A DNA stretch of 64,000 nt, from positions 37,777 through 101,776 of the forward strand of contig CAUDNR010001557.1 of NCBI GenBank assembly GCA_958430865.1, in the 5' to 3' direction. A model generated the notes under the pieces. The model searched no databases. It was not told the origin of the DNA and saw only the letters and a program-made list of their open reading frames with translations. Below, piece by piece: positions 15,705 through 49,317 of this stretch. This stretch comes from Entrophospora sp. SA101 (taxonomy: Eukaryota > Glomeromycota > Glomeromycetes > Entrophosporales > Entrophosporaceae). Position 1 is the first letter of the stretch, and each line of letters opens with the position of its first letter. The translations under genes were made by a program, and so were the position numbers.

Positions 15705-16541
15705 CTAGAAATTGACACTCTTAAATTTAAATCGTTTGTTCATTTGTTTATCTGGTAAACATTCAGATCCTTTTGAGAGTATTTCATCATAATTTAAATC
15801 CATAGTAGTGTTAAATTTGGCGGTTTGAGATGAAGCGTTAGTATTATTGATGAAGTTGTCATCATTAATGGGAAGAGGATTAAAAGTAGAATACGAAAGA
15901 AAAGAAGTGGAAGGATTAAAAGAAGTGGAAGATAACGAACTTGGGTTATTGCTTATAAAAGAAGAAAAAAAAGGGCGTGTATAAGATAGTGTTGAAACCG
16001 CAAAATTGCTATTATCGTTATAATCCTTCTCTTCTTGTAATAGTTCTTGTTGTTGATAAAACGAGCTTGTATTATAGTTTGTGTGCAAGCGATACGATGA
16101 TGAATCTACATAATTGGCATTATTATCATTGGTTTCTTGTTGTAATTCCGGTCCTTGAGAAATAAAGATATATCTTTTTGGTAGTTGAACGATATTTTCA
16201 TAAATCAATTTATGTTTTTCAAAAGCCAACATTGCTAATATTTTAAAGTAACGTTTTACTTCGTCCGATTCATTCTTCCAGGAATTTCCAGCTTCCTTTG
16301 AGAGAGTTTTCCAATCCTTTTTACTCTCAAGAGATTTATGTTTTGCAGCATAATTTTTGCGGTATAAGAGAAAAGCGTTTTGGGATTTTGGAATATCTAT
16401 GGAATCAACATTATTGGGATTGGGTGAAATGAGTTGAATCATTTGCACGTGTAGTTGACAAGGAGGATTAAAGAGAAGACGAGTCTGATCACTGTCAAGT
16501 TGTGCTTTATAAACACATAATAATATTTCATCCATACACAT
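15705..16541 (-). CDS. HMG-box protein, MATA-HMG-like, intact copy 1
   Basis: Single-exon gene, 278 residues, start MCMDEILLCV. An HMG box spans about residues 50-118: NAFLLYRKNYAAKH is helix 1, the middle includes WKTLSKEAGNSWKN, and the end includes KRYFKILAMLAFEKHKLIYE. This is the sequence-specific MATA_HMG subtype of fungal mating-type regulators. The C-terminal half is Ser/Asn/Gln/Tyr-rich and probably disordered. Expected role: DNA-binding transcription factor in the nucleus. R. irregularis is known for an extreme expansion of this family, and a mating role is not established for most members. The box is nearly identical to that of the gene at 22420, with a much more divergent tail. 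Confidence 0.88.
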   Translation of the reverse strand: MCMDEILLCVYKAQLDSDQTRLLFNPPCQLHVQMIQLISPNPNNVDSIDIPKSQNAFLLYRKNYAAKHKSLESKKDWKTLSKEAGNSWKNESDEVKRYFKILAMLAFEKHKLIYENIVQLPKRYIFISQGPELQQETNDNNANYVDSSSYRLHTNYNTSSFYQQQELLQEEKDYNDNSNFAVSTLSYTRPFFSSFISNNPSSLSSTSFNPSTSFLSYSTFNPLPINDDNFINNTNASSQTAKFNTTMDLNYDEILSKGSECLPDKQMNKRFKFKSVNF

Positions 16542-17354
16542 TATTACTGTTTTTGTTAGAATAATAATTTTCTATTCGAACTTGCGATATATTAATTATT
16601 ATCGAAAAATTTGTTTTATTATACGAAGAAATTATTATAATTATAAAATAAATTTTTTCAATCGAGTTTAAAGTTGCGATACGACGAAAACAAAAAATTA
16701 ATTATTAAAGAAAGTAATTGGCATATTATTAATAGCTTAAAGATTATTTTCAAATTAGAGGGTTCGATGTTATAGCTTAAAGGTTTTTGTATCTTTTTAT
16801 AGTTGAAATTATAGATCTAGCTAGATTTACAAATGACATGTCAGTTCATAATCACTTTACCACATTAAGCCAATGTTTTTCAAAAAATAAACGTTTTCGT
16901 CATTGTATCCTTTCACATTCGTCCAAATATTTGTAATGCAAATTTTCTTTGTTTTATTTTAGATTTATTATATACTAATTCGTAATTGATTACATGATAT
17001 TCTAATTATGATTTACTGCTACAGGTATTATGGCTAAAATAATTTTTTGTTGTGAATGTATGAAGAAGGACGAAAAGAGCCAAAAAAAGCAAACAAGGAA
17101 AAGTGGATGTTAAAAGAAAGTAAGTCAACATTTTTTTTTATCGCATTTTGGAAATTATCATCGTTATTCATTCATTATTACTGTTATAGATAGATTTGAT
17201 TGAAATGTTATCTAGGTTCTACATTTAAATGATGCAACCAGTAATAATTGGAAAGTAAACTATAACTTATATAATAATATATTGAAATATATGTAACAAA
17301 CGTTTGTACTCGGCAAAAGGAAAACCCGATTAGAAACACGTTAGGATCATGGAC

Positions 17355-17448
17355 CTACGTAGGGTTCAAAATTGACCAGCATTATGTGGTAGTATTATCA
17401 GAATTGCAAATATTTCGATGTAATGCTGGCCAATTATAAGCTTACGTA
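17355..17448. mobile_element. Hairpin MITE, about 94 bp
   Basis: Long imperfect inverted repeats meet in the middle, so nearly the whole element can fold. Termini start TACGTA. It lies 0.8 kb upstream of the start of the minus-strand HMG-box gene. Confidence 0.5.
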
Positions 17449-19288: not shown

Positions 19289-20135
19289 ACAGTGTGTTGC
19301 AAAAATAATTGGCCAAAAATCATGTGATTTAAAACGTGATAACTTTTCATTATATTATATTTTATAAACTTGTTTATTTTATTTTTTCTTATTCCTGACA
19401 TCATTTTTTTAAAAGTTTGTTACTACATTATTGAAAATAAGGTTATAATTATGTCATCATCAGATCTAGAATCACAATGTCAGACTATATTATACTTTTG
19501 GAAAAAAGGTGCCTATAATTCCACAAATTAACAGGAATTCCATTACCTACTATTAAATACAATATCAAAAAATCGAATGAGACAGGAACTTCATCTCAGA
19601 AAAAAATCCGGAAGGCCGACTATGGTTACACAACCCACGTCGAGGACAATTGGACAGTTCCTCTGAAGAAATCCTACTCTTTCTTTAAGAACTTTGGCTA
19701 CCGAACCATCTAAATTTGATGTAAATATTCGCTATACTACAATTAAATGACATTTAAATAGAATTGGTTATAAAAATTCATTACCAACTGGAACGCCGAT
19801 GCTTACTGTATCCCACAAGGCTAATTGTGTAGAATGGGACAAAAAAATTTAAATGGCAAAACTATTTTACAGATGAGACAGCATTTCAATTATTTAGGAA
19901 TACAATTACACAATGGTATAAAGGTCCAAGGCCAATTAGACCACTCCCTAAAAATAGACAAAAAATCTTTGCATGTGCCGGATTTTGTAGCAAATGGAAA
20001 ACAAGTCTATTTTGTTTTACACAAACAATGGATGCCAATTTTTATATTAAAATCGTTGGAAATCATCTCTCTGAAGTCAATAATATGCTTGGGAAACGTT
20101 GGAAATTTCAACAAGACAATGATCCAAGTCGTATA
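19289..20135 (+). pseudogene. Tc1/mariner transposase relic, truncated
   Basis: A probable left terminus at TA|CAGTGTGTTGCAAAAATA is followed by a decayed transposase starting at ATG 19451. Conceptual pieces include GRPTMVTQPTSRT (helix-turn-helix linker), SHKANCVEWDKK, FTDETAFQLF with the first catalytic Asp, and WKFQQDNDPSR with the second. These are the expected DDE-type landmarks of Tc1/mariner. Several frameshifts and stops separate them. The sequence stops just after the second catalytic motif, where a different element begins, so the third acidic residue and right end are lost. Confidence 0.75.
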
Positions 20136-21130
20136 TAATGTTGTATGACGAAATGTTTTTAGAATTGAGAAATTATTTCGTCAAATGCACTAAAAAACGA
20201 CGAAAGACTAAACCTTGACGAAAGTCAAAATCATTCAAAAATTATTGAACAAAACAAAAAATTAGAAAATCAGATTTAGCTTTTATTAAAATAAATTTTT
20301 TTATAGGTTTTTGTTATTTTCTAACATTGAATTCAATTTATTATTGTAATTAGATATTTCGGTACCAAGAAATTTTCCAGATAAAACACTCCTAGATGGT
20401 GGTTGATATGCATGATGGAGCTATTGAAGAAGATATATAAAGTATGGATTACTGACAACTGAAAAAGAAAATCACAGCAAACAAATGCTTTGATTAATGC
20501 CCAGTTAATAGAATCATTGCGTTTTTTTGTCAACAATGTGCTTTCATAAAAATTTGAAATTGGCTGTTGAATTGTTGATGATTCTAAATTTTCATTGTTA
20601 TTATCATCATTTATTTGCCTTAGATATTCTTTTCTAATTTCATGAGTACAGCCAGGACAATGATTTGTTAAATGTGATAAAAGTTTTTGTGGTTATCCAT
20701 GGCTAAACTTTTTTGTGCAATACTTGCATTGTGCAGAGTAATGTCCTTTAGATTTTTCTTTTTGTTTTTAGTAAAATGAATGAATACACACATTTGAGGA
20801 AGGTCTACCAGATAAATTATTTTGTGGATCCGACATTGCCTTAAACAATATTATCTCATGAGCTTACTATTGGATATAAAAGGAAGGTGGAAGTTGCTTG
20901 TAATTTGAATAGTTTATGGTCGTTTTACTAATTTCAATTCAAATAATTTTTACTCAAATATTATAAATAAGGGGCAAACTTTTATATATAAATATATAAA
21001 ACAAAAAAAAATTTCAATTTCAATTTTACTTTCGTCAAATTGTCAAAATGGCCCTTGGTGAAAAACCATCTTTGGTCAGTACTTTCGTCACGTCAATGAC
21101 TAAAATCAAAAGTTTCGTCATACATCATTA
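20136..21130 (-). mobile_element. hAT-like element, about 995 bp, with BED-finger transposase remnant
   Basis: Inverted ends TAATGTTGTATGACGAAA and, complemented, TAATGATGTATGACGAAA (18 bp, one mismatch). On the minus strand a degraded reading begins MSDPQNNLSGRPSS (about 20835), then a BED-type finger (CKYC ... HLTNHC), then the conserved hAT stretch ALIKAFVCC ... PPSR-like ... SGKFL, ending near 20330. Only the N-terminal part of a transposase is present and it is frameshifted. The same terminus plus subterminal sequence recurs at 50474. It abuts the Tc1/mariner relic immediately after its QQDNDPSR motif. An 8-bp target duplication is not evident. Confidence 0.65.
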
Positions 21131-22419: not shown

Positions 22420-23373
22420 ATGAATCCTGAAATATTATTATATGTTAATAAAGCACGACTTGACAGTGATCAGACTAGCTTTCTCTTCAATCCTCCTTGT
22501 CAACTACACGTGCAAATGATTCAACTCATTTCACCCAATCCTAATAATGTTGATTCCATAGATATTCCAAGATCCCAAAACGCTTTTCTCTTATACCGCA
22601 AAAATTATGCTGCAAAACATAAATCTCTTGAGAGTAAAAAGGATTGGAAAACTCTTTCAAAGGAAGCTGGCGATGCCTGGAAGAATGAATTGGACGAAGT
22701 AAAAAGTTACTTTAAAATACTAGCAAAGCTGGCTTTTGAAAAACATAAATTGATTTATGAGAGTATCATTCAGCAACCAAATCAACATATATTTATTTCT
22801 CAAGGACCAGAACCGCAACAAAAACAAAAAGAAGATTGTCATAAAACCAATAGCAATACAAGTTCGTTATCTTCCACAAATAATAATTCAAACTCATCTT
22901 ATCCGCAACAAAAAAATCAAATAGATAATTCCTATTATGAAGTTTCATCATTGCACCATTTGTACTCAAACTATAGTACAAAATCGCCTTATCAACAACC
23001 AGAACAACTAGAAGATAATGATAATAATAACAATTATGTAGTTTCAACACCAACTTATCCGTACTCTTCTATCCCTTCTTTCACAAGTGATAATCCAAGT
23101 TCATTATCGTTCACTTCTTTTAGTCCCTCCGCTTCTTTTCTTTCGTGTTCTACTTCGTCTGATTTTAATCCCCTTCTCGTTAATTATAACAATATTGTCA
23201 ATAAGACTGATGATTTATCTCAACCCGCCCAATTTATTACATATTTAAATAATGGTAAAGACTCCCTAGAAGAATTTCAACAATACTTACAAATTGAACA
23301 AGCAGATGCACAACTAAATGAGACTTATTGGAATTCATTGGGTTTGGTCTCAAAAGAAAATAAAAATATGTAA
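22420..23373 (+). CDS. HMG-box protein, MATA-HMG-like, intact copy 2
   Basis: Single-exon gene, 317 residues, start MNPEILLYVNKARLD. The HMG box lies at about residues 50-118 (SQNAFLLYRKNYAAKH, DWKTLSKEAGDAWKN, KSYFKILAKLAFEKHK), followed by a Gln/Asn/Ser/Tyr-rich tail with PQQK-type repeats and a short acidic/glutamine C-terminal segment (EEFQQYLQIEQADAQLNE). The region before and inside the box is almost the same as in the gene at 15705, while the tails differ in length, so tails evolve faster than boxes. The upstream words (ACATATTTAACG before the ATG) are shared with other family loci here. Expected to be a nuclear sequence-specific DNA-binding protein. Confidence 0.9.
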   Translation: MNPEILLYVNKARLDSDQTSFLFNPPCQLHVQMIQLISPNPNNVDSIDIPRSQNAFLLYRKNYAAKHKSLESKKDWKTLSKEAGDAWKNELDEVKSYFKILAKLAFEKHKLIYESIIQQPNQHIFISQGPEPQQKQKEDCHKTNSNTSSLSSTNNNSNSSYPQQKNQIDNSYYEVSSLHHLYSNYSTKSPYQQPEQLEDNDNNNNYVVSTPTYPYSSIPSFTSDNPSSLSFTSFSPSASFLSCSTSSDFNPLLVNYNNIVNKTDDLSQPAQFITYLNNGKDSLEEFQQYLQIEQADAQLNETYWNSLGLVSKENKNM

Positions 23374-29493: not shown

Positions 29494-29667
29494 CTTTTAC
29501 CTTCCTTAAAACAAAAATTCAAACCTTCAACCACATCTTCTCCCTCTTTTTTCCTTACCACATTAACATATTGTTAATTTCTGCGTGATTATTTCACAAT
29601 CATTAAAAAAATTTCTTTTATTACTTCTCCTCTCGAATCTTTTTTTTATCAATTAAAAATAATAAAA
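28773..29667. promoter_or_regulatory. Upstream region of the subtilase gene
   Basis: It has an (AAT)n microsatellite at about 29447-29487, followed by pyrimidine-rich stretches (CCTTCC, CTTCTCCTCTC) in the 150 bp before the ATG at 29668, typical of fungal promoters and 5' leaders. No clear TATA box can be chosen in this AT-rich context. A frame at 29161-29412 overlaps it but is not convincing. Confidence 0.4.
29447..29487 (+). repeat. (AAT)n microsatellite
   Basis: About thirteen AAT units, nearly perfect, about 180 bp upstream of the subtilase start. Likely length-polymorphic between isolates. Confidence 0.9.
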
Positions 29668-30990
29668 ATGGTTTCATACAAATTTTTTTCAATTGCTATC
29701 ATTGTTGCTTTTTTGGCCACAGCTGCTCAATCGGCTCCTAGCAACAATAATGTCAATTGTCAATTCGCCGCCAAATTTTCTCCTTCTTCTTCTGAAAACG
29801 CTAAACTCTACATCGTCTTATTAAAAACCTCTACTTCTGCATCATCGTCTTCAAAAAAAAATGCTGCCTTCAAACATTTTGAAATGTTGAAAAAGTGTTT
29901 AGGAAGAAAAATTCAAAAAGTCAATGCAAGCAACTTCTCTGCAAGATTAGATGATAAACAAATGATCTATGATTTCTCTGTTGATTCAGAAGTAGTCGGA
30001 TATAATGGTTACTTTACTCCTGAAGATGCTAAAAAAATAGCAAAATTGGATGAAGTTTCTGTCGTCGAACAAGAACAGGAAATCAAAGCAAATTATGCTC
30101 TTCCATCTGGAAATAATGGCAGGATATTCAAAAGAGCCGTTGTTAATAATCCATTATTCAATTTGGATCGTATCGATCAAGCTAATTTTCCACTTGACAA
30201 AAAATACACCTTTCCTGACACAGCTGGTCAAGGCGTAAATGTCTACGTTATTGATACTGGAATCAATGTTGAACATAGCGACTTTGGTGGACGTGCAAAA
30301 CATAGTGCTAGTTTTTGTGAAGGATGTGGCGATAAAGATGATAATGGTCATGGTACCCACGTTGCTGGTATAATTGGTGGGAAGACTTTTGGAGTAGCCA
30401 AGAAATGTAATCTACTTGCGGTAAAAGTACTTGCTGCTGATGGTAGTGGTACAAATACTGATTTTGTCAATGGCATGTTACATGTGCTCAGTCAGCATAA
30501 AAAAAGTTCCAACAAAAACACAGTCATTAACATGTCAATTGGCGGAGGTTTTTCTCAAGCTATCAATGATGTTGTCGAAAAACTTACCAAAGCAGGTATT
30601 CATATTGTAGTGGCAGCTGGTAAGGAGTCTTCAGGTGCTTGTGAAGTATCACCAGCATCTGCGCCATCTGCTATTACAGTTGGTGCAACAGAAGATACAA
30701 GTGACCAGATTGCCGATTTCTCAAACTCTGGCAAATGTGTTGATATCTTTGCACCAGGTAGTAATATTAAATCTGCCACTTTTGATGACAACAATGGTTC
30801 AGTTGCATTCTCCGGAACCAGCCAAGCAACACCACATGTCTCAGGAACAATTGCATTGATTATTGCTAAAGAAGGCAACGCAAGTCCAAGTAGTATGGCT
30901 TCAAAACTTATAAGTCTAAGTACCAAAGATGTTGTTGATGGTTTGGATGATTCTACACCAAATAGATTTTTGCGTGTTCCATCAGCCTAA
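29668..30990 (+). CDS. Secreted subtilisin-like serine protease (S8, proteinase K type)
   Basis: Single-exon gene, 440 residues, a normal length for fungal proteinase-K-like enzymes. It has a signal peptide (residues 1-22, ending AAQSA), then an I9 propeptide domain (about 45-140, ending at the VVEQEQE segment), a linker, and the S8 domain. The catalytic triad is visible: Asp196 in VIDTG, His228 in GHGTHVAG, Ser385 in SGTSQATPH. The oxyanion-hole Asn, expected in the AAGN motif, is replaced by Lys319 (AAGKES, codon AAG). In this family that Asn stabilises the transition state, so activity may be reduced or altered. Cys pairs are present. Predicted role: extracellular proteolysis. It lies between the inverted tropomyosin fragment and the tropomyosin gene. 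Confidence 0.93.
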   Translation: MVSYKFFSIAIIVAFLATAAQSAPSNNNVNCQFAAKFSPSSSENAKLYIVLLKTSTSASSSSKKNAAFKHFEMLKKCLGRKIQKVNASNFSARLDDKQMIYDFSVDSEVVGYNGYFTPEDAKKIAKLDEVSVVEQEQEIKANYALPSGNNGRIFKRAVVNNPLFNLDRIDQANFPLDKKYTFPDTAGQGVNVYVIDTGINVEHSDFGGRAKHSASFCEGCGDKDDNGHGTHVAGIIGGKTFGVAKKCNLLAVKVLAADGSGTNTDFVNGMLHVLSQHKKSSNKNTVINMSIGGGFSQAINDVVEKLTKAGIHIVVAAGKESSGACEVSPASAPSAITVGATEDTSDQIADFSNSGKCVDIFAPGSNIKSATFDDNNGSVAFSGTSQATPHVSGTIALIIAKEGNASPSSMASKLISLSTKDVVDGLDDSTPNRFLRVPSA

Positions 30991-33918: not shown

Positions 33919-34047
33919 AAATGTTTTATTATTTTATTTAAATGTTATTAATAATTTATTATTTTATATGATTTATATATTATATTTATTAGGTGAGATT
34001 ACATATCATACATTTATGTTTAACCAATAAATAAAATATAAATATTA

Positions 34048-34645: not shown

Positions 34646-36360
34646 TTATAAATATTTTTTGTTGAAAAAAGATTGAATTACACACATTATTTGTGCTACA
34701 ATTAATTGTTTCATTTATTTTGAAAGGGGGGTTCTTTATCAATTAAAGGAGTAGCAGCAGTGATTAACTAATGAGTAAATCAGATTCAGAAGAGGAAGAA
34801 AATGATGAATGAACTTTGTAAAAAAAAAATGCATGTAAGAAAGGTTGTATATAACTATATCTTTAATAAAAATCAATTAGCATGTAATAGTAGAGATTTC
34901 TTGTAATGTTTTCTTGCTTATATCAGATAAGTAATTATAATAATGATGACTGTGATGTTGATTTGATTATAATATTGATGATTTTATTTTTTAAAATGTT
35001 TATGTTGTGTTTAGGAAATTTATGCACGATGTTTAACATTGTCAGTGCTAGGAAAATATGGTGATAATGATTTGTAAAAATCCTTGAGGCAATGTCGAGC
35101 TTATTAGAGAGTATTATAAATTTATATGATACAGGATTTAGCATCAAGAGCAAATCAGGTAAATAAAATAGTTTCTCAGAACAAATAATGATCAAAGGAT
35201 TTATATTCTTGTGATAAATTGGTTGAGATTACTAAAAGCTAAATTATATATGGAATCAAAGATCCAACACTATATAGACTACATAAATTATATAAAAAAT
35301 TTATTATTGCTATCATTACCATCTTTCCACCAATTCTCTTATTTTACGTTCAATAATCAAGTTTCCTAATGGTTGCATTTCATTGTACTACCATTATATC
35401 ATCATTATGTATTTGGGCATGCTGCAACAAAACCAGACAAAGTGAACTACAGGGATCAAAATTACATTTATCACCATGATTGTTTTTAGTCAAAAGAAAA
35501 ATGCATAAAATATTGGAGTATTCCATCCTTGTAGATCACCAAACATAGATTACATCATTATAACAATTACTGCGCGGATTTTTTCAACGTTACATCAAAA
35601 AATCTATCGGTTATTGTGAATTTTCAAATTAAAAAATATTTATGATGGCTTAACTCTTAAATTGAAGACTATACAAAAATAAAATTTATCAAGCCGGTTA
35701 ATTCTAAATATTTCTTTATTTAAAATTTGTTTCTTACGGTTCTTTTTTAATACCATTTTCTTTAAAAGGAAAAGATTTTAAAAGAAAATCCTTATAAATC
35801 CTCTTTTTACTGATAAATTTCCAAAAACATTCTGTCAGCTTATTCCCTATATCACAAAGAATAAAACTACGGAAAGATTTTTGCTCTATCTTATTTATTT
35901 ATCAAGCCTTTATGCTTCAAAGTTTAACTGTATTTTCAACATTTTTAGATGATTTTACTAAAATTAAAAAAAAATCTGTCAGCACGTTCACCATCATATT
36001 TATTACAATCTTTCTTAATTTCATAGTTGTACCTTTTTTTTTGAGGGAGATACAATTTTATTTTTTATATTCGTAAATTTTATATAATATTAACTATTAT
36101 CATCATTAAAAAATATTTAACATTAAAAGATATATTGGTGTTGGTAGCAATTTTATATATATAGTTAATAGTTTATTTTTAATTAATTATTGATTTGTTT
36201 TAACCCTGATTTAATAAAAATATAATATGTAATAATTATTTTATTAGACATTTATTCAAATAAAAATAATGAATTTCGTTCTCTTTAAAATTGTTGTACG
36301 TGAAAATGAAATTATGTGAATTCTTAATTTAGATTTCCATTACTGGCCAGATGATCGTTC
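34646..36360. other. Intergenic region, mostly featureless
   Basis: No gene is supported. About 35410-35470 (GGGCATGCTGCAACAAA ... AAGTGAAC ... GATCAAAATTA) resembles about 8446-8510, so both may be fragments of one dispersed repeat. The remainder is AT-rich. Confidence 0.4.
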
Positions 36361-38069
36361 TTAATAACAGCATTTTAAATCTTCACTAAATTCAAGCAAT
36401 TTTTTCTCTTTTTTGAGAGACTTATCCAAGTTTTCAATCATACTTGACATATAATGGATCGCATACTATAAAATCAAATATAGTTAAATAAAATTTATCA
36501 AATTTGTCACATAAATCATATATTATTTACCATCAATTGATTTAAAGACCGATAATATTCATTATTACCTTCCCTCACAGGAATTTTTAAAGTTCTCACT
36601 AAACGTACTCTATATATTCTATAACCTACTTTATCTAAAGAGTATACTTCCATATTAAATCCTATTAATTAACAAATAAACAATTAGATAATTGGTTTAA
36701 TGATCAACTGCGTGATAAAAAAATGATTACCATATATTATAGCGCCGAATACTTCTAAATTCTTCAAGTCAAGGTTTTTATTGTTGTTAGAATTTTTTCC
36801 ATATTTTTTATAAGAATATTTAGTTATGAGGTCATAACTGTCTTTCGTCATCCTCATCATTTTATTTTTATCTGAGTTTATTTCTGGCAGCAGTTTTATC
36901 CAAGGTGAAAGACAAATTTCACTGAAATAAATTTCGAATTTTACTAATTTTGGATCATGATACTTTTTTTTGTTAGAATAGTTATATCAGCCTTTTCCCC
37001 ATGTTTATTCTTCTGTAAATAAAAATGTTTATGCAAAGTAATATTTTCTATGATCTTATACTCACCTTTTCTTCACTGTCATTATCACTAATACTTTCTA
37101 ATTTTCTTCTCTTGGACCCAATACTAATCCTCTCGCAACAATGAAAATAAATGTACACACAGGTGAGGTAGACATATAAAAGTATACAGGATTATGGTAA
37201 ACGTAATACTTTTTTTGATTAGCATTTCCTGCAAGTAATTGCTATGTAAAAAAAAATTTTTAAATCTTGGTTGCAGGAATTCCCAATTTATATATTTACA
37301 TACATTATTAGTTGTAAATTTCCAACATCACGAGTAACAATATTGAATGGAATTGTGGTGAAATGGCTTCGCCATGTGCCTTCGCTTATAAACTTATCCT
37401 TTTTAGTGTAAGTCGAATTTTTGTGAATAAAATAACTAGAGTAATTTATTAGCAATGAAGATTTTATAGCAAAAGATACATAAATACTCACAAATGGTTT
37501 CTTAGGTCATTAATATGATTTTCACCAATAAAGTTTGCATTACCAACATCGTTTATTTTTGAACTTGACTTATCCGAAATTTTTTTCCATTCTTCATTTG
37601 AAAAGTTATTTCTAAGCCATGGGTGAGGATTTGATGTGTCAACATTTAAAGAAACTATTGGATCATCATAGTTCAAATGATCTGGTACATATCTTTCTAT
37701 TATATGCTTTAATCTAAGTTGCAGTACCACTTGAGTTGAGTTGCAGCTGATGATAATGACACATTATTTACAACATTTTCTATTGGAGCGAATGCTTTTC
37801 TTTTGAAAGAGCCATGGCCAATATGACACCTTTTCAGCCTGAAATAAATAAAAATAACAAATAAATCAATTGATTTTATTATCAGATTAAAAATATAAAC
37901 CATTAAATGAATCAATATTTACATCAAGTTCCATTATATCAATGTTACTTTTTAAAATTTTTTCATGACTGATATCATCTTCAACCTTTTTTTTAAGAGA
38001 AATAACAATCGGCGAGAAAACTGCACGGAAGTCGCACGACTTGCGAGTTTTGGAAGGAGATCGTGACAC
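36361..38069 (-). CDS. Seven-exon gene of a Rhizophagus-expanded family, possibly nuclease-like
   Basis: Minus-strand exons: 37901-38069, 37492-37838, 37304-37435, 37066-37129, 36731-37012, 36531-36661 and 36361-36465. All junctions are GT-AG and their phases agree if one base is added in each of three places (the exon 1/2 boundary, CTCAAG near 37727, and the A8 run near 36970). The product would be about 410 residues. The order of motifs, a TWRSHFTTIPFNIV block, then KRRKLES, GEKADITIL, KFEIYFSEICLSPW, KMMRMTKDSYD and EVYSLDKVGYRIYR, matches a large family of hypothetical proteins I associate with R. irregularis. The acidic residues in EIYFSE and the spacing suggest a PD-(D/E)XK-like core, which is inference only. 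Confidence 0.55.
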
Positions 38070-38130
38070 GGCAAATGTTAAATCTTTTTTTTGTGTTAAT
38101 TAATTAATTTCAAAAATTAAATTTAAATTT

Positions 38131-38292
38131 TGATTATTTTCTTTCGTTCAAGGTTTTTCCCATTCGTATAATTTGATTTTGTGTTTATGCATACATTATA
38201 TTCCGTGTAACTTAAAAATTAAATTAAAATTGATTATTTTCTTTCGTTCAAGGTTTTTCCCATTCGTATAATTTGATTTTGTGTTTATGCAT
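38131..38292 (+). repeat. Tandem duplication, period 100 bp
   Basis: Two copies of about 62 bp, starting TGATTATTTTCTTTCGTTCA at 38131 and again at 38231, identical over the shared part, just upstream of the seven-exon gene's start. Confidence 0.85.
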
Positions 38293-38777
38293 ATGTTATT
38301 GTATGTTATTATTATCATGCTAATTTAAAAGAAAGAATTGGTTTGTGCGTGAGCAATTATTGACGTGAGAAATAGTTTTATTGTTTTTGGATATTTATTT
38401 AATAATTATCAAATTTTTTATTTTTAAACTGTCGTATTTTATTTTAAAAAAACACAATTCCACCATTATCTCTACAAAATATCAATCTAAATTCCCCGAT
38501 TGATTTAATCATTAAAAGCATATTAATTTGCGATTCACACACAATTCACAAAATAATAATATGTTGATATTACTCGCATTATAATATTCTACACAAATAA
38601 TTCAAATAAAACAAACCCTGACACCATAAAATGTGTGGAATATAAGATTTTATTTACGACTAATCTTGATAATGATAAAGAATGATAATAATAACCACAA
38701 ACATCAGAAAAGAATAACACAAAAATAATTTATATTGTTTAATTAGATGTTAAAGTAAAAAAATTTTTATATGATAG

Positions 38778-38904
38778 TCTAAATCAGTAAATTTCAGTGT
38801 GTAACTATGCCGACTTCTACAAATTTGTAAACTATTACTATTTACAGAAAACTGCTAATGTACGATGTTACACCCGCATTGAATTTTATACACTGGTCTA
38901 AATC
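38778..38904. mobile_element. MITE, second copy of the 9309-9445 family
   Basis: Inverted relative to the first copy. It shares CAGTGTATAAAATTCAATG (complemented), GGGTGTAACAT and AATTTGTAGAA. It ends about 75 bp before the start of the Asn/Gln-rich gene at 38980, so it may contribute to that gene's promoter. Confidence 0.6.
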
Positions 38905-38979
38905 GCTATAAAAGCACCTGAAAATAAACAAAAATCAATATTTAAAAAAAGTTACTAAAAAAAATTTAAAAAATTAAAA

Positions 38980-39549
38980 ATGGATTATCAAAGTTATGAC
39001 AATAATGATTTGATTAATGGCACTAATAACCAAGGCCCCAATCGTGTTCTTCATTCAAACGGAGAAACAAATTTTACCGGCTCGGCTCCTATTCAAAACA
39101 ATCAAAATGCCGAGTTTGCTGACTTTACCCATGGAAACTTAGCTCATGACAATCTCAATCAACAAAACACTTTTAACAGCAATTCTGTTGGTCCAAACAG
39201 CATGGTTCAAATAGGTGTCAATAACCAAAATTTTAATCTTGTTTCTCATCCAAATGGACAAACAAATTTTACCGGTTCGGCTTCTATTCAAAATAATCAA
39301 AACGTCGAGTTTACTGACTTCATTCACGAAAGCTTTGTTTATAATAATTTCAATCAACAAGATACTTTTAACAATATTTCTGTCGGTCAAAATAGTATGA
39401 TTCTAACAGATGCCAATAATAACAATTACAACAACGTGAGCACTGCTTATCAAGGCTCTCAAATTACTAATACTTATCAAAATGATCAAATAGTAATTAG
39501 CCGTCAGCAACTTCTAGATATTGTTAATCAACTGTTAGGACTATTATAA
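38980..39549 (+). CDS. Asn/Gln-rich protein built from two 65-residue repeats
   Basis: Single exon, 189 residues, with A-rich leader before the ATG. Residues 16-80 and 81-145 are two copies of one unit, best conserved at NFTGSA(P/S)IQNNQN and the segment ending F(N/T)...SVGxNSM. A short Tyr/Asn/Gln stretch follows, and the protein ends with an amphipathic helix (SRQQLLDIVNQLLGLL). No signal peptide or membrane segment is present. The family is not recognised. Composition suggests a disordered, possibly self-associating protein with a C-terminal docking helix. Repeat spacing is exact and the frame is open throughout, supporting a real gene. Confidence 0.65.
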   Translation: MDYQSYDNNDLINGTNNQGPNRVLHSNGETNFTGSAPIQNNQNAEFADFTHGNLAHDNLNQQNTFNSNSVGPNSMVQIGVNNQNFNLVSHPNGQTNFTGSASIQNNQNVEFTDFIHESFVYNNFNQQDTFNNISVGQNSMILTDANNNNYNNVSTAYQGSQITNTYQNDQIVISRQQLLDIVNQLLGLL

Positions 39550-39715
39550 TAACATAATTATTAAATTTTTATTTTATTTTATATATTTGTATTAATATTA
39601 TATACAATTTGACCATATACATTTTTATTTTGTTTTATTTCACTTGAAGGTTAAAATATTAATAATAAGATTATAAATTTATATTTCAAAATCTTTTTTT
39701 CATTTTTCAATAAAT

Positions 39716-39904
39716 TCATATATGTAAAAAAAAAAATTTTCCCAGGAAAAATTCATACAAGACATCAGGAAATTTTTTTGAGGATAAATATTGAGATACA
39801 TTGTTTTTCTCAATTTTTTTTAAAATAATTTTTATTGTTTCTGAATATGCGATATTTGCAAATAAAATGAAACATATTAATATCAAAAGTTTGGCTCGGG
39901 TCAT
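39716..39904 (-). CDS. Candidate small secreted peptide
   Basis: A 62-residue frame with a good signal-peptide profile: MTRAKLL, hydrophobic core ILICFILFANIA, and likely cleavage after AYS. The mature part is Lys-rich (about 43 residues) with no Cys. Small secreted proteins are common in mycorrhizal fungi, but in sequence this AT-rich a hydrophobic start can arise by chance. No intron or relative was seen in the window. Confidence 0.3.
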   Translation of the reverse strand: MTRAKLLILICFILFANIAYSETIKIILKKIEKNNVSQYLSSKKFPDVLYEFFLGKFFFLHI

Positions 39905-40456
39905 TATAACATGGCACCACTTCTTTAAATAGGTTATTTTTTTGTTTGTGATATACAGTGAATTTCGATTTAGCGGATGTCTAATAAAAATCTTGATTTA
40001 ACGGATTGAGGCTGCCACATTGTAAATTTTCTCGATATAACATATGTACTAATTAAATCTCGAATTAACGAATTTTTGAAAATTTTTCTTTCCCATATTT
40101 TATCTCTACCATTTTTTTGTTAATTTGTTAAACAATAATCCAAATAAAACAAATTAAATTTTCATCAACAGTCACAGGACATTTCCCGCCGATCTGTAGG
40201 AGGTTGTAAAACATATTAATATATAGTAAAATTTTATAATCGAATGTCTTCACACCCTCGTTAATTTGTGCAAATTAATTTAGAATAATAGATGGTAATG
40301 TTTATATTTATTGTTTATGCAAGAATTTTTTATATAAATACGCCTTCATTTAATTTTTGTTTCAAGATTTAAAAATAATAATTATCGTAAATATCCAAGT
40401 CAAATTATTAAATAAAATTTTATTATTAAATAATTAATATCTTTTACATAACGTAT
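39905..40456. other. Intergenic region with a pogo-like terminus
   Basis: At about 39955 the sequence TACAGTGAATTTCGATTTAG, followed by repeated TTAACGGA-type words, resembles the terminus of a pogo-like element. I do not find its matching right end. The 20 bp before 40457 (TTTTACATAACGTAT) is the leader shared by HMG-family loci. Confidence 0.4.
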
Positions 40457-41172
40457 ATGGATACTGAAATATAATTATATGCTGATAGAGCACAACTTGA
40501 CGATGACGAGGTTCACAATCCTCCTTGTAAACGCTACTCGCAAATCACTGAGTTATTTTACCAAATCTTATTAAAGTTGATTCTATAGATATCACAAAAT
40601 CTCAAACGCTTTTCTGTTATAACACAAACCTCTTGGGAGTTAGAAAGGAAGCCAATGATGTCCGGAATAATGAAACAGACGAAGTGAAAAAATCACTTTG
40701 GAGTTTTAGCAAAACTAGCTCTTCAAAAACTTATGAAAATCGACCAAAAAATTGTATTTTCATTGCTCGCCACAACCAAAACAAATAGATAATGATAATA
40801 ATAATGATTTTACAGTTTCATCATCACATTCTTATGATGAAATTGAACAATCCTTATTATTGTTTTTATGAAGATTATCTTTTTGTTTTCGTTGTGGTTC
40901 TAATTGTCGAGTCATAAAATGTGGCAAAATTGTACGAAAACAAAAAGATAGTTTTATAAAAACAATAATAACGATTGTGCATTTTCATCATTCACACTCT
41001 TCTCCTTCCTTTTGTCATATTTTATGGCCCAACAACCAGAATCACAACAAAGCAAAAAGATAACTTCTGTGAAAACAATAATAACAACTGCGCAGTTTCA
41101 TCATCGCCTTATCCACGCTCTGCTTCGTCCGATTTTAATACTAATGCTGATTACGATACGATGACTGGCTGA
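40457..41172 (+). pseudogene. Decayed HMG-box gene with internal fold-back
   Basis: It starts like its relatives (ATGGATACTGAAAT) but has a stop at codon 6, and frameshifts and deletions within the box. Recognisable pieces include LYADRAQLDDDE, NPPCKRYSQIT and a later SPYPRSASSDFN. At 40854-40971 an antisense copy of the tail repeat is followed by a sense copy, forming a hairpin of about 37-bp arms. It cannot encode an HMG protein. Confidence 0.8.
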
Positions 41173-42266
41173 TCTTTGTTTTTAATATTAATGATGATTA
41201 AAATACATTTATTGATTTTATTCTTATGAAAACATGAAACAGATGTAAAATAGCAATAATAAATATTTTTTAAATTGATAAATAGATATGTAATGACATT
41301 TTTTTAGAGAAGGCTTTATTAGTGAATTTTATTATAAAAAAATAAATCTATTTTTTATAATTTTCTTTTCTTTTTTGCGAGATGGCTAAAAAATTATCGG
41401 CTAATACTAACACTAATAACTAAGGAATTTTTAAACGGCTTATCCGGCTAAATTAATTCGATGATAAAAAAACTCTCTTAACATTTATTTTATGTCAGAA
41501 ATTTTACTGCAGAATTCAGCGACATAGACACTTAGTCGAGATTGGTCCATCTGCATTATTTAGAACGACAAAAAAAAATCACATATTTGCTTAAAAGAAA
41601 AAAATAAAAGATAATAATATAGCAATAGTTAGAGATGTGCCATTCACAATAACCCTGATTTTTTTTCGCGCATAGTGTGTATATACATTATATGGAGGGA
41701 AATATCATAAATGCGTACATAATAATAAAAAAGCAAATGGCATATTCCTTAATATTTTTTTTTCTTAGAAATGTTTGTTAATAAATAAATGTCTAAAAAA
41801 CATAGCTAAACCCTTATGCGTAACATACTATGCACAGCACATCACTAGCAATAGTAAACCATTATTTCCAACTCTTTCTTTAGCATCAAAAAAAATTTTT
41901 TTTGAGGTTTTGTTAGGTGTTGTTTCTTCTGGTTCAAATGAACAAATACAAATATTTCCGATGAAACAAACTTGCAATAAAACAATATATATACATTCTT
42001 TGATTAATAATGACAAGAATTCTCAACCTTCACTATTGTGAGACGCTTCCATTACACGCGTAAAGAATTAAAATGAAAAAAAAGGGTTTATTTCTTAAAT
42101 AGTACAAATCACATGTTTATTATAAATAGATATAAGGGAAGTTAAAACTTCATATTTAGATTTTATTTTTCGAAAATAAATAATTTTTTTAAAAAAAAAT
42201 TTATATACTTAACTGTTTTTAACCGGTTAGGCCGGTTCCAAACTCTATATCATGGTTGTAGTTGAG
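41173..42266. other. Intergenic region between HMG loci
   Basis: About 41640-41720 (ACCCTGATTTTTTTTCGCGCATAGT, GCGTACATAATAATAA) matches the right end of the segmental duplication near 25550-25625. No gene is seen; the 88-codon frame at 41775-42041 is not convincing. Confidence 0.4.
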
Positions 42267-43754
42267 TCATAAATGAGACGAGTTTGCAACATCAATTGTG
42301 CAAGAAAAAGTGGAAAGTGAATGAGGTGATGACGATGAAACTGCATAATCGTTATTATTTTCTTTTAGATTTTGTTGTGGTTCTGGTTGTTGGAACATAA
42401 AATGAAGCGAGGTTGTATTATCGTTTGTGCGAGAAAAAGTAGGATATGAATAGGATAATGAATGTGCACAATAGTTATTATTGTTTTTATAAAGATTATC
42501 TTTTTGTTTGCGTAGTGGTTCTAGTTGTTGAGTCATAAAATGAGGCGAGCTTGTACTATTACTTGTGTAAGGACAAATAGGATATGGATAAATTGATGAT
42601 GACGAAACTGCACGATCGTTATTATTGTTTTTATGAAGATTATCTTTTTGTTGTAGTTGTTGAGACATAAAATGAGGCGAGCTTGTATTATCACTTGTGC
42701 AAAAAAAAGTAGAATATGGACAAAATGATGATAATGAAACTACACGATCGTTATAAAAATTATCCTCTTGTAATTGAGCCATAAAATGAAGCGAGGTAGT
42801 ATTATCGTTTGTGCAAGAAAAAGTAGGATATGGAAAGAATAATGAATGTGCATAATCGTTATTATTGTTTTTATGAAGATTATCTTTTTGTTTGCGTTGT
42901 GGTTCTGGTTGCTGAGTCATAAAACGAGGCGAGTTTGTACTATTACTTGTGTAAGGATCTTTTTGTTGTAGTTGTAGCTCTGATTGTTTATCTACAAAAT
43001 GAAGCGAGGTTGTATTATTAAATGTGGAAGAAAAAGTAGAGCATGAATAGGATGATGATGAAACTGCACAATCGTTAATATTGTTTTTATAAAAATTATC
43101 CATTTGTTTTTGTAGTAGTTCTAGTTGTTGTTGATAAGACGAGCATACATTATCGTTTGTGTTAGAGGAGAAAGAAAAATAGGGTGATGACGAAACTGCA
43201 GAATCGATATTGTAATTATTATTTATTTGTTTTTGTTGCGGCTCTGGTTGTTGATAAGACGAGTTAGGATTATCGTTCATGTAAAAAAAAGTGGACAAAG
43301 AAGGATTATTATCATCATCATTGTTATTTTTTTCTTTTTGTTCTTGTTGTAGTTCTGGATGTTGAGCAATAAAAATATATTCTTTTGGTAGTTTATTACC
43401 CGAAATGTTGCCTTTTTTATCATAAGTTGATTTATTTTTTTCACGAGCCAACTTTGCTAATGCTTTAAAATAACTTTTTACTTCGTCGGATTCATTATTC
43501 CAGGCATCGCCGGCTTCCTTTGAAAGAATTTTCCCGTCCTTTTTACTCCTAGAAGATTTATGTTTTGCGATATAATTTTTGCGGTAAAAGAAAAAAGAGT
43601 TTGGAGATTTTGTGATACCTATATAATCAACATTATTGGGGTTAGCTGAAATAAATTCTGTGATACGCGAGTAGAGTTTACAAGGAGGATTGGAAAGAAG
43701 ATGAAATTCATTATCGTCAAGTTGCGGTCTATATAATAATATTCCAGGATCCAT
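42267..43754 (-). CDS. HMG-box protein, MATA-HMG-like, with tandemly expanded C-terminus
   Basis: Single exon, 495 residues, the longest family member here. The box lies at about residues 45-120 (SPNSFFFYRKNYIAKH, EAGDAWNNE, KSYFKALAKLAREKNK) and is more diverged than those at 15705 and 22420. The C-terminal 340 residues are about nine tandem units of variable length (roughly 25-45 residues) with the pattern QPEPQ-KQKDN-KNNNND-AVSSS-YPTFS-TNDNT-S-HFM. Units differ by in-frame indels. A Gln/Asn/Ser-rich tail of this kind could act as an activation or condensation domain, which is inference. Leader TTACATAACGCAT before the ATG is shared with the pseudogene at 40457. Confidence 0.9.
   Translation of the reverse strand: MDPGILLYRPQLDDNEFHLLSNPPCKLYSRITEFISANPNNVDYIGITKSPNSFFFYRKNYIAKHKSSRSKKDGKILSKEAGDAWNNESDEVKSYFKALAKLAREKNKSTYDKKGNISGNKLPKEYIFIAQHPELQQEQKEKNNNDDDNNPSLSTFFYMNDNPNSSYQQPEPQQKQINNNYNIDSAVSSSPYFSFSSNTNDNVCSSYQQQLELLQKQMDNFYKNNINDCAVSSSSYSCSTFSSTFNNTTSLHFVDKQSELQLQQKDPYTSNSTNSPRFMTQQPEPQRKQKDNLHKNNNNDYAHSLFFPYPTFSCTNDNTTSLHFMAQLQEDNFYNDRVVSLSSFCPYSTFFCTSDNTSSPHFMSQQLQQKDNLHKNNNNDRAVSSSSIYPYPICPYTSNSTSSPHFMTQQLEPLRKQKDNLYKNNNNYCAHSLSYSYPTFSRTNDNTTSLHFMFQQPEPQQNLKENNNDYAVSSSSPHSLSTFSCTIDVANSSHL
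42280..43330 (-). repeat. About nine coding tandem repeats in the HMG gene tail
   Basis: On the plus strand the units are marked by AAAATGA(A/G)GCGAG followed by (G/C)TTGTATTAT and an AAGATTATC(T/C)TTTTG word. Spacing varies from about 75 to 137 bp but stays in multiples of three, so the frame is kept. Confidence 0.85.
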
Positions 43755-45368
43755 ATGCGTTATGTAAAATATATTATGGCTATTATTATATTTTTAAATC
43801 GACAATTCGATTCGATAATTGCTATTCCTTAAATTTTAGAAAAAATATAAAACAAATTTTTTATATTAAATAATAATCGAAAAAAAAAAAAAATAAAACA
43901 AAAAACATGCAACATTAAATACTAATTACTATACAATAAAATTTATGATATATTTATCATTGATTTATTAAATGAAACTTATAATATATTCGTCATTGAT
44001 TTATTTATTTTTCAATACATAAATAGAAATGTCAAAGAGTGCTTTGCATTGCATACGTTAACAATTCATGCCTTGTCGCACAAACCAAGCAAATTTTTAT
44101 CAACAAATGGTTGTTGTAAGTCTGGATTCTTTTTACTATTAAAGATGCAGATCTTTCATTCCCGCAATCGATATTTACAAAATTGAATAATTTAAATAAG
44201 GAATTATTTAATCTGAGTGACATCTTCCAGAGAGAAAATTAGTCTTGTACGATAAATGACCGAGTTTACATGTATAATAGCTCAAAGTTCAATATAAATT
44301 TTAAACTTCTTTTTTATTTTAATATCGGCACTCGCTGATTACAATCCGATTTGTATGATTTGTATGTATAATCGTGGGATTGATTATTGTGATACGTTCT
44401 GTTTTTAATTAATAGAAAAAATTTCATGAGTGACAAAGTCACTTGACAAAAAATTGTTATTCTTTTGTGCCACAGGGATTACTTTATATATGAATAAAAT
44501 AATTTTATCTAAAAATTAGCATGGTTTGTGTGATGAATAAAGACTTTTCTATGTAGAAAACACAGTTTTGCGGGTCTCTCGGATTCATTTACAGATTGGC
44601 AATTAAATAATTGATTGATTTATCTGTCATTGAACAATTCTACTGTAATAAAAAAGTAGAATTGGTTGTTCCGTTTGACAGAAACTAGAGACCGTATCAA
44701 TTTGTACAATGCTACGTAATGATACTATGAGATTTACTTTATTTTAGAATGATAAAATAGAATGATAGAATAAAATGTCAAATACAATAATTAGACAAAA
44801 AGAATTTTCGGACTTTGGCGGTATTTCCTGGCATGCATGGTCATCAATTTCTCATACCGAAACTGAATTTTAATGATATTGTTGCCATTATTATGCATAA
44901 ATGTATTTACTTTTTTTAGAGAATTGAAAAGTGCGCACCAATGATCAAATTAAATAGATTCAAAGTTTGCCTTCGTATACATGATAAAAACATTTCATAA
45001 TGTTGATGATAATATTACACGGGAATTCCAAAAAAACCTTTATTCAATAAAAAAATTATGAATGCTTTCTAATTTAAATTGAACATTATTGGCTTCCATT
45101 AGCGCGTGCTTTTTCAAGCATTTTATATTTAAATTATGGTATTGTTTTTTTTTTTTTATTCTTTGTAATCATCCTTTTCAATATTTTTTCATTTAAATGA
45201 AAAAATTAATGACGAAATGAAAGTCAACAACCGGCGAATACCGAATCTAAAAATTTAACGTCTACTGTTTTAATTTGTACGCCTTTTTATAAATATTTAG
45301 AATTCGAATTTTCTTTTTTATTATTGTTTGACCATTTCAATCATTGACTGTGTGCCATGTGATTTTCT
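43755..45368. other. Intergenic region, segmental duplication copy B
   Basis: About 44430-45170 is the diverged partner of 24880-25625. Shared words: TTTGACAGAAA, AGAATGATAGAATAAAAT, CCAATGATCAAATT, TTTCAAGCATTTTA. No gene is seen; the short minus-strand frame at 44032-44223 is not supported. Confidence 0.5.
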
Positions 45369-45509
45369 CAGGGCTGGCTGCGTAACTCAAATGAGCATTG
45401 GCTAAACTGACTAGTCATATGTTAAGTCAAGTTTAGTCAAGTTTAGTCAAGATGATTGTTACTAAATTAGGTTTTTAACCCCCTTTACGCTGCCAGCCCT
45501 GGATTTTCT
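45361..45509. mobile_element. 133-bp hAT-type MITE with perfect 8-bp target duplication
   Basis: Element 45369-45501 with ends CAGGGCTGGCTGCGTAA and TTTACGCTGCCAGCCCTG, flanked by GATTTTCT on both sides (45361-45368, 45502-45509). CAGGG termini and an exact 8-bp duplication identify a hAT derivative. The interior contains repeats of AGTCAAGTTT. The perfect duplication implies recent insertion. The fragment at 13199-13906 ends in a similar CCAGCCCTG and could be a source family. Confidence 0.85.
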
Positions 45510-45775
45510 ATGATCAGCAAGGGTAAAATAATTCCCGAACCTCTTTATCCACACCCTCATTACTTGATTTTTTTTTTGAAAAAAAACAAATTTGAGCCTT
45601 TAATATTTTAAATATAGTTTTTTCTTGCGAATGTTTGTTTTTATTATCATCTTAATAAATCCTGGTAATTAATTTTTTTAAAAATAAATAATTATCCAAA
45701 TATCTCAAATTTTAAAAATTCGAGCAGTCAAATAAAGTTTTATTATTTAATATAATGTTTTTTATACAATACACA

Positions 45776-46876
45776 TGATGAAATACCATTATATTTTGGT
45801 AAAGTACAAACTTGATAATAACCAGACTCACCTTTTCTTTAAATCTCCACCAACAAATCACAAAATTTATTTCACCTAATTCCAATCAAAATCTCAAGTC
45901 TCTTTTTTATACCGCAAAAATTATAATGCAAAACATAAATCTTTTAGGAGTAAAAAGAAATTTCTTTCAAAGGGAACCAGTGGTGCCTAGAATAATGAAT
46001 TGGAGGAAGTAAAAATTTAAAGTGTTAGGAAACAACCTCTTCAATAACTTATGAAAGTATCATTTCAGGGAATATTTCAGGAAATCAACTACCAGAAAAT
46101 AGATTTTTATTTCTCAATGACCAAAACCGCAAAAGAAAATTCTTATAAAACCAATAATAACTATTGTACAATTCTTCTTCTCCTGCTAGTTTTTCTTGTA
46201 CAAATGATAATACAAGTTCATTATCTTCCACCTCTCTTCTTCGATATTCTACTTTGTCTTGTTTATGATTTGATAATTAGAACAACAAAGCAAAAGATAA
46301 TTTTTATAAAATCAATACTAGTCATTATGTAGCTATATCACTATCTTCTCCATGTTACTCTTTTTCCTCGTTTCCTTGCACAAATAATAATCCAAGCTCG
46401 TCTTATTGGCAACTAGAGCCACAACAAAAAAAAAATATATAATAATAATAGCGATGAAGATTATGCAGTTTCATCATCCACCTTCTTCCTCCTCCTCTTC
46501 TACTATTTTTTTACACAAACTATAATATAAGCTCATCTTATCAACAATCAGATCTACTACAAAAACAAGAAGACAATAATAACGATTGTGCGGTTTTAAC
46601 ACCACTTATCCGTATCCTTCTTTTTCTTTTTTCCTTGTACAAGTGATAATCCAAGCTCTTTATTTTCACATCTTTCTTTCATGTTCTACTTCGCCTCTTC
46701 TTATTAATTATAACAGCATCATCAATAAGACTAATATTCTACCCCAATCAGACCAATTTAAGTAATGGTAAACATCCCTAGAAGGATTTCAACAATATTT
46801 ACAAACTGCGGAACAAATGCACAATTAAATGAGACTAATTGGTATTTGTTACAAAAAAATGAAGCAAATGCAAAAT
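45776..46876 (+). pseudogene. Decayed HMG-box gene
   Basis: Family landmarks appear in order but in different frames: the ATG region with ILWTS-like remains, LFYTAKIIMQNIN (a frame-shifted form of the helix 1 segment LFYRKNYNAKH), and later Ser/Gln-rich tail pieces. The 3' part near 46740-46860 still resembles the EEFQQYLQ end of the gene at 22420. Many stops and shifts make a product impossible. Confidence 0.75.
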
Positions 46877-48475
46877 AGTAAAAGTGCAAGCGTGCGACTG
46901 AGTTTCTTAATTAGTTGCCTTTAGCTATGTCTAGTTAGTTATCAGCTACTAACCGCTATAATTTGGATTATCTTCTTGATGATTGCTTGTAATCCATCTT
47001 GATAACTGCTTGTTATTCCCTTGATAACTACTTGTAAGCCTCTTGATAACTGTTTTACCGGCTACCTTTGATGGCTGCTTTTCTAACTAAAATAAAATAA
47101 TGAAATAAAATATATACAACTATACTACAAGCAATATAGTAAAATTAAAAGGGTCCTAACTAATAATTAAAGGTTGGCCAAACCATTAATCATTAGAAAG
47201 GATTAAGAACCAATCACACTAGTTCGTTTATTTATTACAGTCAAAAGACTATTTTTATTATCGGTGAAAATGAGTCATGTAACGGATTTTTCAAGCATAT
47301 TTATACTTCTTGGAGAATTATATTATCCAATAATCTAAAAATGTAACGTTATCCAACAATGCATAATTAGAAATATGAATACGAGTTATGTTTATACTCA
47401 TAATAGAAATGCTAGATATATCCAGATACTCGCTAGTACTGTAATCAGGGCGTAAAATATCTATTTAAATTTATCGAAAAATTTCTGAAAGTAATATTAA
47501 TATACTAATATTATTCTCCAGTGCGAAGAAAAAAATGTAATGTAACATAAAATATATTTTTTAACGTGTGATTATAATCACATAAAATGAGTTCATTTTG
47601 TATACGGGTTTGGTAAAAGTAGCTCAAAACCAAGATAATCAGGGTACGTTTTATAAATATCATTTCTTTGTATAAAGTAAAGTTTACAAATAAATTTAAA
47701 GAAACTTTTAATATAACATCATTTCGGACAACATGTGACGAAATGTGCGAAACGCAGCAATAGATGTGAAGCAAGCAATTCCGCACAAAAAAAAAAAATG
47801 TTTAAAATTAAATTTTTGTTTTAATTAAATCTAAATAAAATTGAATTTTATATTTTTGTCATCTTTATCATAATTTGACTTTTGACTTTACCCTTAGAAT
47901 CATCTGATAATCCCGATTGTTGAAATGCTTCTTCATTTACTATTTTAATGAAGTGTAACCATACATCAGGCACAAGATGTCCTGTAGCTAATTCTTGATT
48001 GTTGTTAAATGAACTTTCAGGTATATTATCTAATTTTAACGTTTGCAAATTCATTTTACATGATGATGATTGAGAAGGGAATCGGTGAGTTGGGTGAATT
48101 TGTGAATTGGTAAATTAGAATTTGATATCATGGATGTTATTTACTCCATAATTTAAATCTACTAAATAATTGGTTTCGTCACTTTCGTCAAATTACTCAA
48201 AGTGCAGAAATCCTATTTATTTTTCGTCACCCAAGCTTGATATAAAATACACACACTTTATTGATTGAGAATTTGTTATTTTATTTATCATGAATTTTTT
48301 TCTTTTCGATTAAAAATAATAAGAATAATATTTTTGTTTTCGTTTATAGTAATAGAGCAAGTTATAAATACTCGATAAAAAATTTTATTATAATAAACTG
48401 TTTTTCAATAATTAATTTTGCAAATATTGCAAAAAAATATACTATTTTAAACAAAAACAATAATATATTTTACTA
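46877..48475. other. Intergenic region with short repeats and a BED-like fragment
   Basis: About 46975-47065 has three to four imperfect copies of CTTGATAACTGCTTGTAA. The minus-strand frame 47848-48054 (68 residues, GHLVPDVWLHFIK) looks like the start of a BED-type finger from a hAT transposase; upstream on the same strand are GACGAAA words like those in the element at 20136. The rest is featureless. Confidence 0.4.
47848..48054 (-). pseudogene. Possible hAT BED-finger N-terminal fragment
   Basis: A 68-residue frame in which VPDVWLHFIK matches the start of BED domains (the xxVWxxF pattern), but the Cys and His ligands are not found downstream. TGACGAAA occurs several times in the preceding 180 bp (minus strand), as in the hAT-like terminus at 50474. 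Confidence 0.3.
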
Positions 48476-49317
48476 ATGTATATGGATGAAATATTATTCT
48501 ATGTTGATAAAGCACAACTTAAAGATAATGAACTCGCCTCATATTCAATCTTCATTGTAGAATTTATTTCGGGTAATTCCAATAATGTTGATTGTATAGG
48601 TATCCCAAAATCCCAAAACACTTTTTTCTTATACCGCAAAAATTATATTACAAGTCATAAATCTCCTATGAGTAAAAAGGACGGGAGAATTTTTTACCCA
48701 ACAACCAGAACCACAAAAAGAAAATTCTTATAAACCAATGATAAATATTGTACAAATTCATCCATATTCTGCTTCTTTCTCTTATTTTTTCTCTTTTCCT
48801 TGTGCAAATGATAATCTAAGCTCATCTTATCAACAACCAGAGCCACAACAAAAACAAATAGATAATAATAATAATATCGATTATGTAATTTCATCATCAT
48901 ATTCTTCTTCTTCCTCTTCTACTTTTTTGTACACGAACTATAATACGAGCTCGTCTTTATCAATTACTACAAAAACAAGAAGATAATAATAATAATAACG
49001 ATTGTGTAATTTCAACACCACTTTATTCGTACCCTTCTTGTTCTTTTTCTTCTTCTTGCGCAAATGATAATACACACTCATTACCTTCCACTTCTTTTCT
49101 TCCGTGTTCTATTTTGTTTGATCTTACTCTTCCTATTAATTACGACAACAAAATCATCAATAAGACTAATGCTGTACTTCAATCCTCATAATTTAACATT
49201 ACTACGAATTTAAATAATGGTGAAAATCTTCGAGGAGGATTTCAACAATGAACAAACAGATGCATAATTATATGAGAACTTGTTTGATTTTACTGTATTT
49301 TTGTCGCAAGAAGAATG
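48476..49317 (+). pseudogene. HMG-box gene with box truncated by internal deletion
   Basis: The start and first half are intact: MYMDEILFYVDKAQL, then SQNTFFLYRKNYI, then MSKKDGRI. The frame then jumps into the tail region, deleting helices 2 and 3 of the box, and stops at 48733. Downstream the Gln/Asn/Ser tail continues in another frame. The 3' flank of about 150 bp is present twice (about 49330-49510 and 49511-49650). It could only give an 85-residue half box, so it is probably non-functional. Confidence 0.75.

Follow-up and report, generated by a model that had tools for sequence, protein, structure and literature searches.

The stretch of DNA analysed here, hereafter the window, covers 64,000 nucleotides of one contig of the Entrophospora sp. 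SA101 genome (C1205:37777-101776; genome of 101.35 Mb in 2123 contigs). Six HMG-box loci were confirmed between its positions 15705 and 49317, three of them open frames (g1, g2 and g3) and three decayed (g4, g5 and g6). A first-pass annotation had assigned the cluster to this interval; the six loci do lie there, but the cluster is wider, with g0, g7 and g8 located beyond it on the same contig. In all, nine distinct loci of the subfamily were found on C1205, six of them inside 34 kb, and the arrangement is that of an AM-fungal tandem cluster, a single contig bearing several neighbouring HMG-box paralogues. The features are listed below, in window coordinates unless C1205 is named.

C1205:31400-32416: g0, intact HMG-box gene, 338 aa
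15705..16541, minus strand: g1, intact HMG-box gene, 278 aa; box at residues 51-110
22420..23373, plus strand: g2, intact HMG-box gene, 317 aa; head like those of g0 and g1, flanks like those of g6
22564..22749, plus strand: HMG box of g2, residues 49-110 (PF00505, 28 bits)
23146..23370, plus strand: type-A C-terminal module of g2, nearer to the C2062 genes than to g0 and g1
29578..30990, plus strand: subtilase (S8; PF00082, 3.4e-42), between the two cluster halves
40457..41173, plus strand: g4, decayed; type-B C-terminus at 41080-41163
42267..43754, minus strand: g3, intact HMG-box gene, 495 aa, with a repeated tail
42370..42754, minus strand: 2.8 tandem copies of a 132-bp (44-codon) unit within the g3 tail
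45776..46880, plus strand: g5, decayed; type-A C-terminus at 46682-46804
48476..49317, plus strand: g6, decayed; flanks pair with g2, head nearer to g3 and g8
C1205, about 175939: g7, decayed
C1205:206521-207924: g8, intact, 467 aa

The products of g1, g2 and g3 are HMG-box proteins. Searches with the general HMG_box profile (Pfam PF00505, curated cut-off of 25.4 bits) scored them at 29, 28 and 31 bits, respectively, all clearing the cut-off, and g0 and g8 at 30.5 and 29.6 bits. A tblastn search with the heads of g1-g3 returned three further loci, starting at about 40457, at 45793-45802 and at about 48476, and frameshift-aware alignment against four intact queries revealed between 1 and 7 frameshifts in g4, g5 and g6, depending on the query, with zero frameshifts and zero stops in the intact controls g1, g2, g3 and g8. 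The first-pass annotation had proposed three intact genes, three decayed copies and one member with an expanded tail, and all three proposals hold: the open frames lie at the positions it gave and exceed the profile cut-off, each decayed locus carries at least one frameshift against all four queries, and the g3 tail repeat is present. The HMG-box genes of the cluster are intron-less, and their products combine a conserved N-terminus and HMG box, here termed the head, with a fast-evolving tail rich in Asn, Gln and Ser that ends in one of two kinds of C-terminus.

In the AlphaFold model of g2, block-mean pLDDT is 86-97 over residues 1-110, except for a value of 60 at residues 41-50, and the tail is disordered; three helices are predicted in the box (55-67, 76-88 and 92-118). 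The first 14 Foldseek matches of this model were HMG boxes, but all at E 0.5 or worse. The g2 protein contains the string QNAFLLYR, which resembles NAF.LYR, presumably the hallmark of the MATA_HMG subclass (cd01389). Membership of the HMG-box family predicts sequence-specific DNA binding and transcriptional control; the proteins would bind and bend DNA via the box and regulate transcription via the disordered tail.

All six loci had also been credited with a common leader word, ACATAACG(T/C)AT. It exactly precedes the ATG in only two of the six, g3 and g4, and with one mismatch allowed it occurs 3 times in the window, against 2.97 expected by chance. A leader shared by all six loci is hence ruled out.

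Distribution and lineages of the HMG-box subfamily

Searching the genome with the g2 head yielded 58 matches, partly redundant, which together with g4 amount to about 20 distinct subfamily loci in 101.35 Mb. Under random scatter of this number, a 34 kb interval would be expected to contain about 0.007 loci. The general profile identified 118 places in the genome, all above the cut-off, many of them exact pairs from redundant contigs. Further members of the subfamily map to C1689, C819, C2062, C1206, C1526 and C2041; on C2062 (44,070 bp) the HMG genes are duplicated, in inverted (6506/41567) and direct (12098/31819 and 18801/38522) orientation.

All 20 matches of a protein search with g2 were from Entrophospora, as were 29 of 30 in a profile search; no Rhizophagus-named protein was returned by two profile searches (0/30 and 0/12, with 5 of the 12 unnamed) using an exact-word method of limited sensitivity. 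Three SA101 protein records (P0004, P0010 and P0011) match genes of the present assembly with 100% identity. R. irregularis is thus rejected as the source, and the cluster has to be compared within the Entrophosporales. Orthologues of g0, g1, g2 and g3 are present in E. candida, those of g1 (P0002) and g2 (P0001) with 93.5% identity over 278 aa and 94.5% over 309 aa, respectively, and that of g3 being P0014.

In a DNA tree of 17 heads, those of g0, g1 and g2 form one clade (100/100), the g3 head stands apart, and the g4-g6 heads group loosely with members from other contigs. A single clade comprising the six window loci was rejected (AU p 2.3e-7; 2.6e-4 with g0 added), and a clade of g4, g5 and g6 was borderline (AU 0.0501). 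The decayed copies are therefore not simply descendants or ageing siblings of their intact neighbours, and a single local birth-to-decay lineage is ruled out. This disposes of the first-pass reading of birth, tail expansion and decay side by side as one local series. The same annotation had set a placement of the loci in unrelated clades against its own interpretation; the lineages do prove distinct, but the trees place all of them within one Entrophospora subfamily.

The dN/dS ratio, which had been proposed as a check on the intact genes, ranges from 0.12 to 0.55 for the N-terminus and box in 12 pairs, and its bootstrap upper limit lies below 1 in 10 of them, the exceptions being g0-g1 and g1-g2, with few changes; for the tails it ranges from 0.33 to 0.94. 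The 132-bp repeat is represented by 6 anchors each in g3 and g8, by 7 in the E. candida g3 orthologue and by 8 in C1689_6k. Tail expansion is hence a family trait of varying repeat number, and since g3-like tails occur also in g8 and C1689_6k, it cannot be regarded as a local novelty.

Histories of heads and flanks

The g2 head is 94% identical to that of g1, 93% to that of g0 and 73% to that of g6. Its flanks pair differently. Among the eight C1205 genes compared, the best match of the g2 5' flank is g6 (75% over 128 bp, z 11.5), followed by g1 (z 8.1), and that of its 3' flank is again g6 (81% over 114 bp, z 21.3), followed by g4 (z 7.4). Unlike the head tree, the tree of C-terminus and 3' flank joins only g0 and g1 (100/100), and the path between g1 and g2 measures 0.075 in the head versus 0.781 in C-terminus and 3' flank, the largest ratio among 36 pairs of nine genes. 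Of the sites that distinguish g1 from C2062_11k, g2 agrees with g1 at 83 and with C2062_11k at 11 in the head; the corresponding tail counts are 32 and 70 (Fisher 1.3e-16). The g6 locus presents a similar conflict: placement of its head within g0-g2 was rejected (AU 0.0086; 0.037 on a shorter stretch), and so was its pairing with the head of C2062_11k (AU 0.016), yet the two are sisters in the tail (83/91).

Comparison with E. candida extends these observations. The g2 orthologue presents the same head-tail combination as in SA101, so the mosaic structure of g2 cannot be put down to a fault in a single assembly. The g3 orthologue differs from SA101 g3 at 14 head positions, 13 in the box half and 1 in the first half (Fisher 0.001, for a boundary picked after viewing the differences). 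At 11 of the 14 it carries the g2 state, amounting to a g2-like box patch, and one change, H to Y, is found otherwise only in E. candida g2. The SA101 g3 state is common to other paralogues at up to 8 of the 14 sites, which leaves few positions from which to judge the direction of change. The g6 orthologue (P0025, assigned by eye from its start and C-terminus) has a head resembling g0 and g2 and agrees with g0 of E. candida at 22 of the 28 sites that differ, as if the SA101 g6 head had been replaced. On this sequence evidence heads and flanks are shown to have different histories, from which we infer that members of the family exchanged heads.

Several results temper this inference. A GENECONV-like test on 12 intact genes detected nothing after correction (best global p 0.40), with low p in uncorrected pair tests, and a comparison of head and tail at synonymous codons, with conservative filters, returned p 0.09 for g0-g2 and 0.077 for g1-g2; in its pairwise version 2 of 47 pairs fell below 0.05, g0-g2 being one of them. 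The triplet permutation p reached its floor of 0.0002 and became 0.050 after correction for 252 triplets. Estimates of the g2 breakpoint disagree by comparison (codon about 105-128, 152 or 254), and the g1 5' flank resembles that of g2 as well (72% over 111 bp). A single head clade for the type-B C-termini was not rejected (AU 0.10), and in a patch of E. candida g1 that carries the C819_2k state at 4 of 7 sites the clustering was not significant (p 0.40). Titles and opening lines of abstracts in the literature contained nothing on gene conversion in the HMG-box family.

These results bear on the strongest alternative, plain birth-and-death without exchange, in which the contrasts reflect a constrained head combined with fast or re-annexed 3' ends. 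Heads are indeed constrained and tails fast, and the GENECONV-like and conservative synonymous tests fall short of significance. A tail clade of g0, g1 and g2 was not rejected either (AU 0.080 and 0.171); part of the contrast could accordingly stem from rapid C-terminal evolution on the branch leading to g0 and g1. Segmental duplication is also evident: window 32888-46391 (C1205:70664-84167), carrying g4, g3 and most of g5, is duplicated at C1205:116900-130464 (13.5 kb, 98.9%), and the subtilase has a paralogue at C1205:27774-29156, adjoining g0, the two blocks being 88% alike and each near HMG-box genes. We nonetheless consider this account unlikely to suffice: both noncoding flanks of g2 pair with g6 and its head with g0 and g1, the heads of g0, g1 and g2 show low dS of similar size (0.13-0.19) despite widely divergent 3' ends, and the sisters of the g6 head and the g6 tail conflict.

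The interpretation that we favour, with a probability of roughly 0.7, is that the window holds part of a larger Entrophospora cluster of HMG-box transcription factors shaped by birth-and-death together with ectopic exchange of heads. Such exchange is likely, though not proven; it would proceed by ectopic recombination or gene conversion alongside duplication and loss, and would keep some boxes alike (g0, g1 and g2) and re-sort boxes among tails. A bolder version, in which the cluster serves as a recombining store of DNA-binding heads, with conversion shuffling boxes between paralogues, decayed copies included, and re-sorting specificity among tails, we regard as doubtful. HMG-box genes are the main sex-regulator candidates in AM fungi, a lineage long thought asexual, and accounting for their numbers has been difficult. 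Should paralogues swap heads, box trees of single genes would mislead, cross-species orthology would have to come from flanks and tails, and recombination might homogenise or re-sort box specificity.

Assembly, surroundings and known HMG-box families

A third account, which we hold to be improbable, attributes the mosaics and part of the cluster to amplification chimeras and redundant contigs. According to PMC6987183, SA101 DNA derives from MDA-amplified single nuclei, and the assembly contains 65 kb of N in a 208,590-bp contig, perfect short tandems and near-identical repeats: besides the 98.9% duplication, C2071 repeats window 38198-53815, the half with g4, g3, g5 and g6, at 99.98%. Another SA101 record, P0016, is an oddly merged gene model spanning g3 and g5, joining pieces of both kinds to ORF 38980. 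The repeats may be true duplications, different nuclei or assembly redundancy; g3 is identical in three assembly places, and for g1 and g2 C1205 is the single contig of the assembly that carries them. Against this account, E. candida shows the head-tail combination of g2 again and also has orthologues of g0, g1, g2 and g3, the right half of the cluster is found again on C2071, and the contig given in the protein records of g0/g1, g1, g3 and g8 is one of 213,549 bp. The cluster itself sits in one N-free stretch (C1205:50155-101776).

Less probable still is the view that the cluster serves as a store of cassettes or as a mating-type locus of the SexM/SexP kind. In its favour, HMG-box proteins set mating type in Mucoromycotina, and two HMG-box genes of R. 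irregularis, one of them in a five-gene tandem, are raised upon co-inoculation (PMC7490403); a profile search also matched a Marasmius protein that bears the name slightly ste11-like (E 9e-6), a lead only. Against it, the roughly 20 copies are scattered, with several pseudogenes, and no TPT or RNA helicase flanks of the Mucoromycotina type and no homeodomain were detected in the 24 of 34 window ORFs (at least 95 aa) scanned, although introns could hide some. The analysis turned up no evidence for a mating role, in keeping with the caution originally attached to the cluster.

AM fungi are already known to have expanded and tandemly clustered HMG-box genes (PMC7490403 and PMC4771724). The first describes the five-gene R. 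irregularis tandem, around GBC31594.1, a local cluster as here, set apart by a description that, in the part available, mentions neither head exchange nor decay. The second reports large HMG-box families in Gigaspora rosea (over 100) and G. margarita, an expansion of transcription factors comparable to the 118 profile places found here, redundant contigs included; unlike for the present locus, its available text does not describe cluster anatomy. Multiple, diverse SexM-like HMG-box copies related to fungal sex regulators are likewise reported for AM fungi in PMC3834313, and the present cluster too consists of multiple, diverse copies. The locus adds a second order, a cluster wider than reported and signs of head exchange.

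Riley and colleagues are said to have described, in 2014, an expansion of MATA-HMG genes in Rhizophagus irregularis. That family is likewise a large AM-fungal HMG-box family with an unproven mating role, and it belongs to a different order from the Entrophosporales cluster described here.

Rfam and tRNA scans of the window returned no matches. Perfect tandem copies occur at window 680-1483 / 1484-2287 (804 bp, 100%) and at C1205:25530-27285 and 154817-157485, all possible assembly artefacts. P0008 and P0012 are likewise fused public gene models of SA101: P0008 has a g0-like head and a g1-like end, and P0012 runs from a g1 head into a stretch containing a Rad51 domain, which was found neither in the retrieved part of C1205 nor as a separate match genome-wide. 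Frames at 19440-20200 look by eye like a decayed Tc1/mariner transposase (one was scanned, with no Pfam match). The Asn/Gln-rich ORF at 38980-39549 has no Pfam match and has relatives on C138 and C1352, and alpha/beta-hydrolase-like frames lie at 52601-54291.
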